Assembly: GCF_027925385.1 (NCBI RefSeq) | Contig: NZ_AP027142.1 | Coordinates: forward strand, 850,001-914,000 | DNA from: Methylocystis iwaonis | GTDB taxonomy: Bacteria; Pseudomonadota; Alphaproteobacteria; Rhizobiales; Beijerinckiaceae | Reading direction: 5' to 3' | DNA: 64,000 bases | Shown here: one piece after another, positions 29,095-33,566 of the stretch | How positions within the stretch are numbered: position 1 is the stretch's first letter | Layout of the letters: every line of letters begins with the position of its first letter | Made by a program: the position numbers and the translations under genes | Notes under the pieces: generated by a model | The model's input: the letters and a program-made list of their open reading frames with translations, nothing else | Told to the model about the DNA's origin: nothing | The model's database searches: none

Positions 29095-30822
29095 TTACTT
29101 CTTCGGACCCTCTTCGCGGGCCTTGAGCGCCGCGCCGAGGATGTCGCCGAGCGACGCGCCCGAGTCGGCCGAGCCGTATTGGGCGATCGCCTCCTTCTCT
29201 TCGGCGACTTCCAGCGCCTTGATCGAGACGGCGACCTTGCGGGCCTTGCGGTCGAACAGGGTGACGCGGGCGTCGACCTTCTCGCCGACGGCGAAGCGCT
29301 CGGGGCGCTGGTCGGCGCGATCGCGCGCCAGCTCGCTGCGCTTGATGAAGGTCGTCAGATCCGCGCCGGTGATCTTGACGTCGATGCCGGAGTCCTTGAC
29401 CTCGATCACCTCGCAGGTGACCACGGCGCCCTTCTTGACCTCGCCGCCGTCCTCGCCGCCGCCCACGGTGGCGAAGGGATCGCCCGCAAGCTGCTTGACG
29501 CCGAGCGAGATGCGCTCCTTCTCGACGTCGACGTCGAGAACCTGAGCGTTGATGACGTCGCCCTTCTTATACTCTTCGATGACCTGCTCGCCCGGACGGT
29601 TCCAGTCGAGGTCGGAGAGATGGACCATGCCGTCCACGTCGCCATCGAGGCCGATGAAGAGGCCGAACTCGGTCTTGTTCTTGACCTCGCCCGAGACGGT
29701 CGAACCAACGGGGTGCTTCTCGGCGAAGGCTTCCCACGGATTCTGCAGGGTCTGCTTGAGGCCGAGAGAAATGCGGCGCTTGACCGGATCGACCTCGAGC
29801 ACCTGAACGTCGACTTCCTGGCTCGTCGAGACGATCTTGCCGGGGTGCACGTTCTTCTTGGTCCAGCTCATTTCGGAGACGTGGACCAGGCCCTCGATGC
29901 CCGGCTCCAGCTCCACGAAGGCGCCGTAGTCGGTGATGTTGGTCACGCGGCCATGGAACTTCGCGCCGATCGGATATTTGGCCTCGATGCCCTGCCACGG
30001 ATCCTCGAGGAGCTGCTTCATGCCGAGCGAGATGCGGTGCGTCTCGTGATTGATCTTGATGATCTTCACCTTGACGGTCTGACCGATGGTCAGCACCTCG
30101 GACGGATGGTTGACGCGGCGCCACGCGATGTCGGTGACATGCAGCAGGCCGTCGATGCCGCCCAGATCCACGAAGGCGCCGTAATCCGTGATGTTCTTCA
30201 CGACGCCGTCGATCACCTGCCCCTCTTCGAGGTTGGCGACGATCTCGTGACGCTGCTCGGCGCGGCTCTCCTCCAGCACCGTGCGGCGCGAGACGACGAT
30301 GTTGCCGCGGCGGCGGTCCATCTTCAGGATATGGAACGGCTGCGGCACGTTCATCAGCGGGCCGACGTCGCGGATCGGACGAATGTCCACCTGCGAGCGC
30401 GGCAGGAAGGCCACGGCGCCGTCGAGATCGACGGTGAAGCCGCCCTTGACCTGATTGAAGATGACGCCCTCGACCTTCTCATTGGTCTCGAAGGCCTTTT
30501 CGAGCTTGACCCAGCTCTCCTCGCGGCGCGCTTTGTCGCGCGAGATGACGGCTTCGCCCAGAGCGTTCTCGACGCGCTCCAGATAGACCTCGACCTCTTC
30601 GCCCACGGCGGGAGCGGGGTCGCGGCCGTAGCCGGTGAATTCCTTGAGGGCGACGCGGCCTTCGGTCTTCAGACCGATGTCGATGACGGCGACGTCCTTC
30701 TCGATGGCGACGACGCGCCCCTTGATGACGGAACCTTCGAAAGCCTCGTTATCGCCGTAGCTCTGCTCGAGCAGGGCGGCAAAGTCTTCGCGCGTGGGGG
30801 CGCGATCGGTCGTGGCGGACAT
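29095..30822 (-). CDS. rpsA: 30S ribosomal protein S1
   Basis: A 575-residue protein with six S1 OB-fold repeats (for example DYGAFVDLGGIDGLLHVTD and DYGAFVELEPGIEGLVHVSE). It helps recruit mRNA to the 30S subunit. ATG 30822 follows AGGAGAAC; a longer frame to 30996 is not supported. Own terminator downstream. Confidence 0.97.
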   Translation of the reverse strand: MSATTDRAPTREDFAALLEQSYGDNEAFEGSVIKGRVVAIEKDVAVIDIGLKTEGRVALKEFTGYGRDPAPAVGEEVEVYLERVENALGEAVISRDKARREESWVKLEKAFETNEKVEGVIFNQVKGGFTVDLDGAVAFLPRSQVDIRPIRDVGPLMNVPQPFHILKMDRRRGNIVVSRRTVLEESRAEQRHEIVANLEEGQVIDGVVKNITDYGAFVDLGGIDGLLHVTDIAWRRVNHPSEVLTIGQTVKVKIIKINHETHRISLGMKQLLEDPWQGIEAKYPIGAKFHGRVTNITDYGAFVELEPGIEGLVHVSEMSWTKKNVHPGKIVSTSQEVDVQVLEVDPVKRRISLGLKQTLQNPWEAFAEKHPVGSTVSGEVKNKTEFGLFIGLDGDVDGMVHLSDLDWNRPGEQVIEEYKKGDVINAQVLDVDVEKERISLGVKQLAGDPFATVGGGEDGGEVKKGAVVTCEVIEVKDSGIDVKITGADLTTFIKRSELARDRADQRPERFAVGEKVDARVTLFDRKARKVAVSIKALEVAEEKEAIAQYGSADSGASLGDILGAALKAREEGPKK

Positions 30823-31244
30823 TTGTTCTCCTGAGGGCCCTGGTCGGGCGGCGCCGGCTTGGGTTTGGCGTTGCGGAGGGTTTTCGACAATCGGAACGTC
30901 TCGGGCGCGGCAAAACGCTCTCGAAGACGAAAAGTTCGTAGCAACGAACTGGCCGGCGCGGCCCGATGGACGAAAACCGAGTGACACGCGCGCCAAGCGA
31001 AAGGTTCGACGCGCGAGGGTCTATTTAACAGCGCGCCGCCGCCCCCGCAAGCGCCGCCATGCGCGCGCTCGCGGAGAGAGTTGATGCGCTGCGTCAAGAC
31101 CGGCGGCGGCGGCGTTGTATGAGCAAGTTCTCACTCACTGTCGCAATCTGGGCCGATTCCTGCTAGCTAGGCAGGAGGTCAATATTCACGCCTATGCTTG
31201 CGGGGCGAGCGACGGGGCGCGAGGCCAGTTGGAGATCGAAGCTT
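30823..31244. promoter_or_regulatory. Divergent region between rpsA and the bufferin-like operon
   Basis: About 420 bp without a supported gene. It should hold the rpsA promoter (minus) and the bufferin-like promoter (plus). I looked for the GTAACC/CGAA-type extracytoplasmic sigma factor box known upstream of Caulobacter bufferin genes and did not see one, nor a clear -35/-10 pair. The bufferin ribosome-binding site (GGAG, 31231-31234) is at the right edge. Confidence 0.4.
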
Positions 31245-31478
31245 ATGAAGCGGAATATCCTTTCCGGCGCTGCCCTTTCCGCCGCCGCGCTGTCCATCGC
31301 AATTGCTGGCGCGGGTCCTGCCCTGGCCAAGCACAAGGCTCACCAGCGCGCTCCCAAGGCGGCGGTCGAGAAGAACAAATGCAGCAACAAGAACGGCTGC
31401 CCGGCCAAGGCCGAGAGCAAGGACGCGCCGGCGGGCGAGGCGAAACCCGCCGAGATCAAGCCGGGAGAAGGCAAATAA
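31245..31478 (+). CDS. Candidate bufferin-like precursor A (one Cys pair)
   Basis: A 77-residue exported peptide. The signal peptide (residues 1-28, ending ALA) is similar to that of the next gene (both contain SGAAL and an Ala-rich core). The mature 49 residues are Lys/Ala/Pro-rich and contain only two cysteines, in NKCSNKNGCPAK (about residues 44-55), the CxxxxxC type of motif modified by MNIO enzymes in bufferins. The C-terminal tail is Pro/Glu/Lys-rich. First gene of the MNIO operon; RBS GGAG 10 bp upstream. Precursor function is inferred from context. Confidence 0.7.
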   Translation: MKRNILSGAALSAAALSIAIAGAGPALAKHKAHQRAPKAAVEKNKCSNKNGCPAKAESKDAPAGEAKPAEIKPGEGK

Positions 31479-31520
31479 TTCGGTTTCGGCGCATGAGGCC
31501 AATTTGGCGCGCCGATTATC

Positions 31521-31540
31521 ACCCCCCAATGGGGGTTTTC
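31521..31540 (+). terminator. Small hairpin with U-run between the two candidate precursors
   Basis: ACCCCC and GGGGGT form a 6-bp stem with a 4-nt loop, followed by TTTC. It lies just upstream of the AGGAGG ribosome-binding site of precursor B and could act as a weak terminator/attenuator or as a translation-control structure. Confidence 0.5.
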
Positions 31541-31555
31541 AAAGGAGGATAGTGT

Positions 31556-31837
31556 ATGAAGACGAAAATCGTTTCCGGCGCGGCGCTCGCCGCGGCGGCT
31601 GTCGGCCTGGCGCTGAGCGGCGCCGTCGTCACCCCCGCCGCCGCCCATGGTTCGCATCTGTGCAACATGTCCAAGGGCCAGTGCGGCGGCAAGACCGCCT
31701 GCATGACCAAGACCGGCGTCTGCAAGCATAACGTGGGTAAGAGCAAGGCTTCCTGCCGCCATGGCTGCCACCACAAGTCGTCCTGTCATCACAGCAAGGG
31801 CGCTTGCAACATGAAGAGCAAGTGCCACACGAAGTAA
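31556..31837 (+). CDS. Candidate bufferin-like precursor B (nine Cys, nine His)
   Basis: A 93-residue exported peptide with a strong AGGAGG ribosome-binding site. The signal peptide ends at AAA (residue 30). The 63-residue mature part has nine cysteines, mostly spaced 5 or 6 residues apart, nine histidines and many Lys; CNMSKGQC near the start and CNMKSKC near the end look like repeats. This matches the secreted Cys-rich precursors (BufA2-like) associated with MNIO enzymes, where Cys are converted to metal-binding heterocycles or thioamide-type groups. Likely metal (copper) sequestration; not a DUF2282 (BufA1) sequence. An unmodified metal-binding peptide is the alternative. Confidence 0.8.
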   Translation: MKTKIVSGAALAAAAVGLALSGAVVTPAAAHGSHLCNMSKGQCGGKTACMTKTGVCKHNVGKSKASCRHGCHHKSSCHHSKGACNMKSKCHTK

Positions 31838-31843
31838 GGTTTT

Positions 31844-31875
31844 GGCGCCGGCTCCCTCGGGGCCGGCGCCCATTT
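31844..31875 (+). terminator. Strong hairpin between precursor B and the MNIO gene
   Basis: GGCGCCGGC (plus TCC) pairs with (GGG) GCCGGCGCC, giving a stem of up to 12 bp with a CTC loop, followed by CCATTTTA. It starts 6 bp after the precursor stop. Such a partial terminator between precursor and enzyme genes would give more precursor than enzyme. Confidence 0.7.
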
Positions 31876-31893
31876 TAGGCAGGGGATGTTCGC

Positions 31894-32739
31894 ATGCAGA
31901 AGCCAGCCCCGCTCGGCTATGGTCTTGGCCTCCGCCCGATCTATTACGAGGAGATTATGTCGAACCGGCCGCCCGTCGACTGGTTCGAGATCATCTCCGA
32001 AAATTACATGGTCGCGGGCGGGCGCCCGCTCTCGATGCTCGACGCGATTCGCGCCGATTATCCGATCGTGATGCATGGCGTCGCCATGTCGCTCGCCTCG
32101 ACCGATCCGCTGGATTTCGACTATCTCGCTGAATTGAAAGCGCTGATCGAGCGCGTGCAGCCGGCCTGGGTCTCGGACCATGTCGCCTGGACCGGCGTCC
32201 ACGGCCTCTCGCTGCACGACCTTCTGCCGATCCCCTATACAAAAGAGTCGCTCGACCACATCGTCGAGCGCATCTGCCGGGTGCAGGACTATCTCAAGCG
32301 CCAGCTCGTCGTCGAAAACGCGTCGACCTATGTTTCTTTCGTGTCCTCCGATATGAGCGAGCAGGAATTCGTGAAGGAGATGGCCGAGCGCGCCGACTGT
32401 TTGTTGCTGCTCGACGTCAATAATGTCTTCGTGTCCTGCTTCAATCACGGCTATGATCCGGTGGCCTTCATCGACGCCGTCCCGGTCGAGCGCGTGGTGC
32501 AATTCCACATGGCTGGCCACACGAATCACGAGACGCATCGCGTCGACACCCACGACCAGCCGATCTGCGAGGAGGTTTGGGCGCTATACGAACATGCCCG
32601 CCGCCGCTTCGGCGACGTCTCGGCGATGATCGAACGCGACGACAATTTCCCGCCCTTCTCGGAGCTTCTGGAAGAATTGCAGCGCATGCGCGACATCGAC
32701 GCCCGCATCGCCGCGGAAAAGGCGTTGAGCGCGGCATGA
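31894..32739 (+). CDS. bufB: MNIO family (DUF692) peptide-modifying iron oxygenase
   Basis: A 281-residue TIM-barrel enzyme of the multinuclear non-heme iron-dependent oxidative family, as in MbnB, BufB and HvfB. Metal-ligand motifs are visible in order: GLGLR (11-15), FEIISENY, MHGVAMS, VSDHVAW, VVENAS, LLLDVNNV, HMAGHT, DTHDQ and ERDDNFPP. These enzymes oxidise cysteines in a cognate precursor; here the two peptides directly upstream are the natural substrates. It overlaps the DUF2063 gene by 4 nt (ATGA). Cytoplasmic. Confidence 0.92.
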   Translation: MQKPAPLGYGLGLRPIYYEEIMSNRPPVDWFEIISENYMVAGGRPLSMLDAIRADYPIVMHGVAMSLASTDPLDFDYLAELKALIERVQPAWVSDHVAWTGVHGLSLHDLLPIPYTKESLDHIVERICRVQDYLKRQLVVENASTYVSFVSSDMSEQEFVKEMAERADCLLLLDVNNVFVSCFNHGYDPVAFIDAVPVERVVQFHMAGHTNHETHRVDTHDQPICEEVWALYEHARRRFGDVSAMIERDDNFPPFSELLEELQRMRDIDARIAAEKALSAA

Positions 32740-33566
32740 AGCTCGCCGACTTTCAGGCGCTGTTTCAGGCGCGCATACTCGGCGGTCCAGGGGACGCGGA
32801 TGCGCCGCTTTTGAAGGAGCTGCGTGAGTCGCAGCGCGGCGCCGAGCGGGCCGAGCTTCTGCATGTCTATCAGTCGGGCTACCGCATTCGCCTGGAGAGC
32901 TTCCTCTATGAAGATTACCCCGGCCTGCGCGCGCTGATCGGGGACGAGGCCTTCGAGACGTTGGTCGGCGGCTATGTGGCCGCCAATCCGCCACAGTGCC
33001 GCAACGCCCGGTGGTACACGACCGGCCTGCCGGACTATATGCGCCAACATGCGTCCTGGCGCGACGATGCGCGCGCGATCGCCATGGCCTTTCTGGAACG
33101 CGCCATGGTCGACGCTTTCGACGCGCCGAACGCCGAGCCGCTGACGATACAGGCGCTCGCGGGCTTTGCGCCCGAGGATTCGCCGCGCTTCGTTTTCGAC
33201 TTCCATCCGAGCCTCATTCTGCTGGAGCAGCCGGTGGGCGTTCTGGCGGCTTATCAGGCCGCGGCGGCGGAGGATGACGAGGAGCCGGAGGAGGCGGAGG
33301 CGGACGAAGGGGACGCCGAGCCTCAGAGCGCAGAGGAGGCCGAAGCCGTCGCGGTCTGGCGCTGCAATGAAGAGACAGCCTATCGCGAGCTGGAGCCCGC
33401 CGAATATGTCGCGCTCTGCGAAGCCAGGGCCGGCCGCGCCTTCGGCGACATCTGCCAAATGGCGGCTTTTCAGCAATCCGGCGACATCGAACCCGAGCGG
33501 CTTGCGCAATTTCTCGCGAGCTGGTTCGAGGACGGCATGGTCGTCGGCGTGTCGCTGCGCGATTGA
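32736..33566 (+). CDS. bufC: DUF2063 family MNIO partner protein (BufC/HvfC-like)
   Basis: A 276-residue protein that in related systems binds the precursor leader and works with the MNIO enzyme. The N-terminal DUF2063 domain has LADFQALFQARIL, VYQSGYRIRLESFLYEDYPGLRALIG and the FLERAMVDAFD segment. Between it and the C-terminal domain (YVALCEARAGRAFGDIC) is an acidic insertion of about 30 residues (about 175-205) with many Glu and Asp, which I have not seen as a standard element. Start overlaps the MNIO stop. No DoxX (bufD) gene follows. Confidence 0.9.
   Translation: MKLADFQALFQARILGGPGDADAPLLKELRESQRGAERAELLHVYQSGYRIRLESFLYEDYPGLRALIGDEAFETLVGGYVAANPPQCRNARWYTTGLPDYMRQHASWRDDARAIAMAFLERAMVDAFDAPNAEPLTIQALAGFAPEDSPRFVFDFHPSLILLEQPVGVLAAYQAAAAEDDEEPEEAEADEGDAEPQSAEEAEAVAVWRCNEETAYRELEPAEYVALCEARAGRAFGDICQMAAFQQSGDIEPERLAQFLASWFEDGMVVGVSLRD

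Follow-up and report, generated by a model that had tools for sequence, protein, structure and literature searches.

A Two-Precursor Operon of the Buf2 Bufferin Lineage in Methylocystis iwaonis

In the described bufferin operons a secreted Cys-bearing precursor is encoded together with an MNIO (DUF692) enzyme, BufB, and a DUF2063 partner, BufC; Buf1 operons have a DUF2282 (BufA1) precursor and Buf2 operons a BufA2 (BUF_6/12Cys) precursor. The stretch analysed here (the window: 64,000 nucleotides of Methylocystis iwaonis, contig NZ_AP027142.1, positions 850,001 to 914,000) carries on its + strand precursor A (31245..31478; 77 aa, 2 Cys, Lys/Pro-rich tail), precursor B (31556..31837; 93 aa, three exact CxxKxxC units), BufB, an MNIO bufferin maturase (31894..32739; 281 aa, with the ERDD stretch typical of BufA2-type MNIOs), and BufC, a DUF2063 partner of PME type 1 (32736..33566; 276 aa, carrying an acidic insert). 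This operon is of the BufA2 (Buf2) lineage; on balance, judged from sequence, it is a diverged Buf2 operon in which BufBC would turn B, and perhaps also A, into thiooxazole ligands for copper.

Described relatives and what is new

With Buf2 the operon shares the bufA-bufB-bufC order, the SGxx(L/I)A Sec leader, the DUF2063 partner, the MNIO clade and the Asp after the catalytic Asp; it differs in that the A and B families score below the cut-off of 60 of the BufA2 model (NF050166), in the added mini-precursor A, and in the core of B, which has CxxKxxC units and is Cys-His rich, whereas that of BufA2 is Cys-Lys rich. Buf1 has in common with it a secreted Cys precursor, an MNIO and a DUF2063 partner, but its precursor family and leader are different and its MNIO is ~40% identical. 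The EGKCG captophorins (oxazolin, fontiphorin, gonophorin) are alike in their repeat-type Cys core, MNIO-PME1 pair and predicted thiooxazoles; their Lys-Cys repeats are five residues long and their specificity site has Phe (PMC13097082, in the part available), where the present operon has CxxKxxC units of six residues and Asp. Methanobactin (MbnABC) involves the same enzyme superfamily and Cys-derived copper ligands, but has no signal peptide, MbnC in place of DUF2063, and a role in copper uptake, not buffering.

The product expected of bufferins and captophorins is a Cys-derived 5-thiooxazole (−4 Da per Cys, band at ~305 nm), and in the available part of PMC13097082 the characterised MNIO-PME1 products are all said to be thiooxazoles. 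The same part ties the Asp after the catalytic Asp of BufA2 MNIOs to Cys-Lys substrates, and reports that FonBC processed a two-repeat peptide in vitro but not a one-repeat peptide, and was intolerant of Pro. In the available part of PMC12452194, hundreds of unclassified signal-peptide precursors with 1–18 Cys are described as preceding MNIO genes, and preliminary results on a Buf1 system indicate that the sequence recognised by BufBC includes the signal peptide.

An earlier, sequence-only reading of the window had regarded one MNIO serving two precursors as unusual; tandem precursor genes had already been reported (PMC12452194, in the part available), and this expectation is given up. Instead of the new bufferin subtype that it proposed, the operon is better seen as a diverged BufA2 branch in Methylocystis. 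A and this type of B are unnamed in the available parts of the MNIO and bufferin literature, although Table S2 of PMC12452194 may list either; the operon is regarded as a variant of the Buf2 bufferins, tandem and unclassified MNIO precursors being known from the part of that source available.

Enzymes, orthologues and origin of the operon

The four genes were found with the open reading frames, order, strand and coordinates of the sequence-only reading, spaced by 77 nt (A to B) and 56 nt (B to BufB) and with a 4-nt ATGA overlap between BufB and BufC. BufB scored 365.8 bits against PF05114 (Pfam profile search) and 375 bits against NF050167 (MNIO_BufB; cut-off 310), BufC 59.9 bits against PF09836 (DUF2063; cut-off 27.2), which bears out the assignment to a bufferin-type operon. 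On alignment to 3BWW the HG, EN, LDVNN, AGH, VDTH and ERD stretches of BufB, which we take to be the MNIO metal-ligand regions (His/Glu/Asp), were kept; ERDD was retained in 40 of the 40 MNIOs aligned. Assignment of BufB as MbnB was ruled out (83.5 bits; cut-off of the MbnB model 325). For BufC, no PDB relative was found by sequence at E ≤ 1; its acidic insert (window 33270–33347) is long in the majority of A+B operons, whereas BufA2 outgroups have a shorter one, and it might lie against the basic precursors.

A BufB orthologue (at least 73% identity) was found in 32 of 39 genus genomes. This and the purifying selection on A given below rule out a chance cluster. Outside the genus 63 relatives were searched, 34 with a BufB match. 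Seven of the eight best non-genus MNIOs (L051–L058; 56–70% identity) follow a six-Cys BufA2-like precursor, as judged by motif, and for the eighth (L056, near a contig end) no precursor was found; 22 of 22 at 36–44% identity to BufB (L059–L080) follow a DUF2282-like precursor, again judged by motif. Four Methylocystis orthologues (G007, G025, G033, G034) have a canonical BufA2 plus A.

In a tree of 40 MNIO rows the 28 enzymes of B-type operons and the four of A+BufA2 operons form one clade (98/93); the branch placing G010 beside the clade of operons with six-Cys B only is weak (94/58). On this tree the change from BufA2 to B takes one step and the presence of A two, the latter most simply read as one gain and one loss; in the simplest reading of the tree A would also be older than B. 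The divergent neighbour rpsA (ribosomal protein S1; 29095..30822, − strand), a marker of the conserved site, adjoins 28 of 28 B-type operons, the window included. In two of the four A+BufA2 operons its distance from A is 0.9 kb (G025) and 2.2 kb (G033); the stretches taken for the other two did not include rpsA. From the tree steps and the position of rpsA, it is most likely that the BufA2 slot was turned into the B slot in place.

Precursors, leader and core element

With the cleavage sites as predicted, the mature part of A has 49 aa with one C-x5-C pair and that of B 63 aa with 9 Cys and 9 His, in agreement with the earlier counts. The two had been called dissimilar, which is only partly right: their Cys content differs, but they have in common the leader type and the element KxxCxxKxxC. 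In A this element (31371..31400, + strand) has K43, C46 and C52 invariant and K49 nearly so among 13 A proteins, in whose tails A66 and A69 are also conserved at >90%. In B the first such element (31673..31702, + strand) has K40, K46 and C49 invariant and C43 and G44 nearly so among 26 B proteins, K87 and C90 being conserved as well. KxxCxxKxxC is present in 11/13 A and 25/26 B proteins vs 1/8 outgroup BufA2s and 0/4 sister BufA2s.

A search for A over 101 genomes gave matches in 19, with a real A in 14; the remaining five were the leader of a B-type precursor, at the same places as in the B search. With G101, which was outside this search, A is present in 15 genomes, and in 15 of 15 the next gene downstream of it is B or BufA2, with BufB coming after; no A away from such operons was found in the 101 genomes. 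The sequence-only reading had named homologues always apart from MNIO genes as the finding that would speak against it; the linkage found is the reverse. From the start to the Cys pair the median ratio of nonsynonymous to synonymous rates (dN/dS) of A is 0.28 (79 of 91 pairs with dS <2.5), and the proportion of nonsynonymous differences is below that of synonymous ones (pN<pS) in 90/91 pairs; by this purifying selection A as a chance open reading frame was ruled out. The corresponding median for nine-Cys B is 0.12 (10 pairs).

In a profile search with A, in which scoring was confined to the 7999 candidates with the most shared words, at least 54 proteins were matched, two of them B-like (P0016, P0075); among the 52 A-like proteins KxxCxxKxxC was kept in 35, a pair shorter by one residue was present in 15, and the pair was lost in two. 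The closest named relatives of both A and B are Methylocystis proteins; the 18 genome records encoding B relatives are 13 named Methylocystis and five metagenome-assembled genomes (MAGs) of Methylocystaceae, Alphaproteobacteria or Hyphomicrobiales. One A-like protein (P0048) is in a MAG labelled Chloroflexota, probably by a binning error. The tail of A is lengthened by SDAKP/ADAKP-type repeats in G037 (L036); the short A proteins of M. bryophila type (P0064, P0066–P0073) stop right after the Cys pair, and the tail therefore seems dispensable. Three tandem precursors, A, nine-Cys B and six-Cys B, precede BufB in G009 (L033) and G023 (L038); in G011 (L039) B is cut to 76 aa with five Cys, without most of the His-rich repeats.

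The leaders were compared by means of a hidden Markov model (HMM) built from seven non-genus BufA2-like leaders; the background was 323 signal-peptide-like starts from 400 kb plus the window (crude filter; unconfirmed open reading frames counted). The leader of B (31556..31645, + strand) gave 32.2 bits, the best of all scored, followed by that of BufA2 of the same genome (26.9), that of A (31245..31328, + strand; 9.9) and the best other start (7.6); the BufA1 leader gave 2.8 bits. Leaders of 13 of 14 A proteins exceed all 306 background starts given a score. From the common leader type and the preliminary Buf1 signal-peptide results (PMC12452194, in the part available), it is suggested that one BufBC handles both A and B.

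Against Pfam and NCBIfam, neither A nor B passed any cut-off in the profile search that had been proposed for them. Neither matched PF10048 (control: the DUF2282 precursor of L003, 84.0 bits), so the statement that neither is of DUF2282 type was correct. NF050166 was matched at E ≤ 1 by 8/13 A and 13/26 B proteins, more family members than for any other model, all below the cut-off, which weakens the view that the two cores have no relationship. The best A-side score was 24.0 bits (G002) and the best B-side score 35.9 bits (P0025, a metagenomic relative), against 87.7 (L002) and 90.7 bits (L041) for the controls. A BufA2 precursor is defined by Cys-Lys motifs and by conserved Cys numbering 6 or 12; window A has 2 Cys and B 9. 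As the NF050166 cut-off is not reached, A and B are not classed as BufA2 members.

Maturation and alternative explanations

We infer the following course of maturation. BufC would recognise the SGxx(L/I)A-type leader of B and A and hand the precursors to BufB in the cytoplasm; BufB would convert the Cys of the core by oxidation, with 5-thiooxazoles (−4 Da per Cys) as the likeliest result; exported by the Sec pathway, the products would bind excess copper in the periplasm. B, in the former slot of canonical BufA2, would be the main product, its His-rich CxxKxxC core possibly adding His ligands; A, which accompanies BufA2 or B in 15 of the 32 operons, would be a mini-precursor with one KxxCxxKxxC element and a B-like leader. 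By analogy with the described systems, modification of B by BufBC is likely; for A the chances are about even, given the absent Cys-Lys dyad and the frequent Cys-Pro. More tentatively, and with rather less confidence than in maturation itself, it may be proposed that a leader-directed, core-tolerant BufBC matures up to three precursors (A and nine-Cys B, joined in G009 and G023 by six-Cys B) sharing only the leader type and KxxCxxKxxC, the resident BufA2 core having been exchanged for a Cys/His hybrid while ERDD stayed fixed.

Descent of the core of B from BufA2 is likely on account of its position and leader, the core-sequence tests not being significant. Several results weigh against the reading as a diverged Buf2 operon. 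Neither window A, window B nor the nine-Cys proteins P0005–P0008 matched NF050166 at E ≤ 1; without their leaders, B and A cores scored no better against a BufA2-core HMM than shuffles preserving Cys (as good or better: 244/1000 for window B, 83/1000 for window A), and among ten cores shuffled the count was <50/1000 only for six-Cys B of G027 (32) and A of G009 (43). The motif permutation that favours descent (4158/200000 with the sister BufA2s) was picked after looking, and with other BufA2s it does not favour descent (42999/200000). The Cys-Lys dyad tied to the BufA2-type Asp accounts for 32/48 Cys in outgroup BufA2s and 12/24 in sister BufA2s, drops to 32/179 in B and is absent in A (0/27); Cys-His makes up 51 of the 179 Cys of B. 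An unrelated Cys/His-rich core, swapped in behind a BufA2 leader instead of diverging gradually, would agree with the shuffle tests, with core repeats and length that differ from BufA2 and with the unmatched nine-Cys B proteins. We nevertheless regard such a replacement as rather unlikely: some shorter B relatives align to positions 1–60 of NF050166 (P0025 35.9, P0022 26.2 and P0016 24.8 bits), the sister BufA2s have CxxKxxC in 4/4 as well as the string CMTPK (the permutation given above), and metagenomic B relatives with 5–7 Cys look intermediate.

The part of A in the maturation by BufBC is weighed on other grounds. Only B might be a substrate, A being an unmodified helper kept alongside the bufferin (e.g., a copper carrier in the periplasm that uses its Cys pair, or a peptide that competes for BufC by means of its leader). 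This would fit the missing Cys-Lys dyad, the Pro that follows the second Cys in 24/50 A homologues with the pair, and the faster evolution of A than of B (medians 0.28 vs 0.12); A is also missing from 17 of the 32 orthologous operons, which carry six-Cys B (G016 and G019 among them), and unmodified extra precursors are raised in the available part of PMC12452194. Before such operons with six-Cys B only, tblastn in six genomes gave as best match to A an E of 0.003 over 40 residues, and an open A-like frame was not seen in these six. The leader evidence for A is likewise uneven: that of window A is narrowly above background, and that of G021 (2.8 bits) is at background level, with 17 background starts as high. 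These leader scores, the Pro and the operons lacking A count against maturation of A. An unmodified A is doubtful all the same in view of the BufA2-type leader in 13/14 A proteins, of the weak BufA2 alignments of eight A proteins, which start at profile position 1 or 2 and take in the first Cys region, of conserved core positions that are mainly those of KxxCxxKxxC, and of the two repeats that sufficed for FonBC in vitro (PMC13097082, in the part available). A third possibility concerns the metal: the operon could serve another metal or stress (zinc, gold, oxidative), its His-rich core having left copper. His is 17% of the core residues of B vs 2% in BufA2, MerC fusions and gold-induced operons are mentioned in the available part of PMC12452194, and the three neighbour genes scanned (rpsA, XdhC and a MobA-like protein) include 0 copper genes; the ERDD stretch of BufB is, however, unchanged, and the genome also has genes for methanobactin as well as two bufferin operons of described types, which makes this explanation quite improbable. 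Given those genes and operons, the handling of copper is probably of central importance in the host.

Regulatory elements, other MNIO genes and meaning

A box around CCTGCTAGC (31140..31171, + strand; ~105 nt before A) was located by alignment of nine genomes. Its 32-mer is matched at 22/32 positions here and at 20–29/32 in eight others of 28 genomes, at −93 to −122; in the remaining genomes, some operons with six-Cys B only included, it is weaker or farther upstream. These scores are partly circular, because the 32-mer came from the consensus of the same genomes. A promoter or operator element is possible; a consensus scan of the + strand yielded no sigma-70-like site. Between A and B there is a hairpin followed by a T-run (31521..31536, + strand; z −1.84 for the spacer; absent from the consensus scan report), possibly a partial terminator or mRNA stabiliser. 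A strong hairpin (31844..31870, + strand; z −2.26) lies between B and BufB. In the spacer between the last precursor and BufB a hairpin was obtained in 18 operons folded, with z from −0.98 to −4.26, negative in 10/10 tested; it may set the ratio of precursor to enzyme.

The genome has five MNIO genes, BufB of the window included. One (L002) is 67% identical to this BufB and has a six-Cys BufA2 precursor; another (L003) has a DUF2282 precursor, and the BufA1 (DUF2282) operon comes immediately after the canonical BufA2 operon (L002/L003, G000:C1:81-85 kb). A further MNIO (L004:558-2307) is immediately preceded by a protein of 308 aa whose C-terminus is rich in Gly, Ser and Cys; this protein presumably resembles TIGR04222 proteins (PMC12452194). 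On contig C2 there is an MbnB gene (423.7 bits); the open reading frame before it (L005:1287-1379) ends RCASTCAMTNG and is read as a methanobactin precursor candidate.

Some Methylocystis have a canonical BufA2 in the orthologous operon, others the B core, together with BufBs that are 73–78% identical to that of the window and have the same catalytic stretch. These operons offer a natural test of which part, leader or core, determines the substrate of a bufferin MNIO. A, with two Cys, would be near the smallest natural substrate, if modified. By its genes the host makes methanobactin, for uptake, and it has two bufferin operons of described types, so that a single cell could be used to study copper acquisition together with copper buffering, both by one enzyme superfamily.

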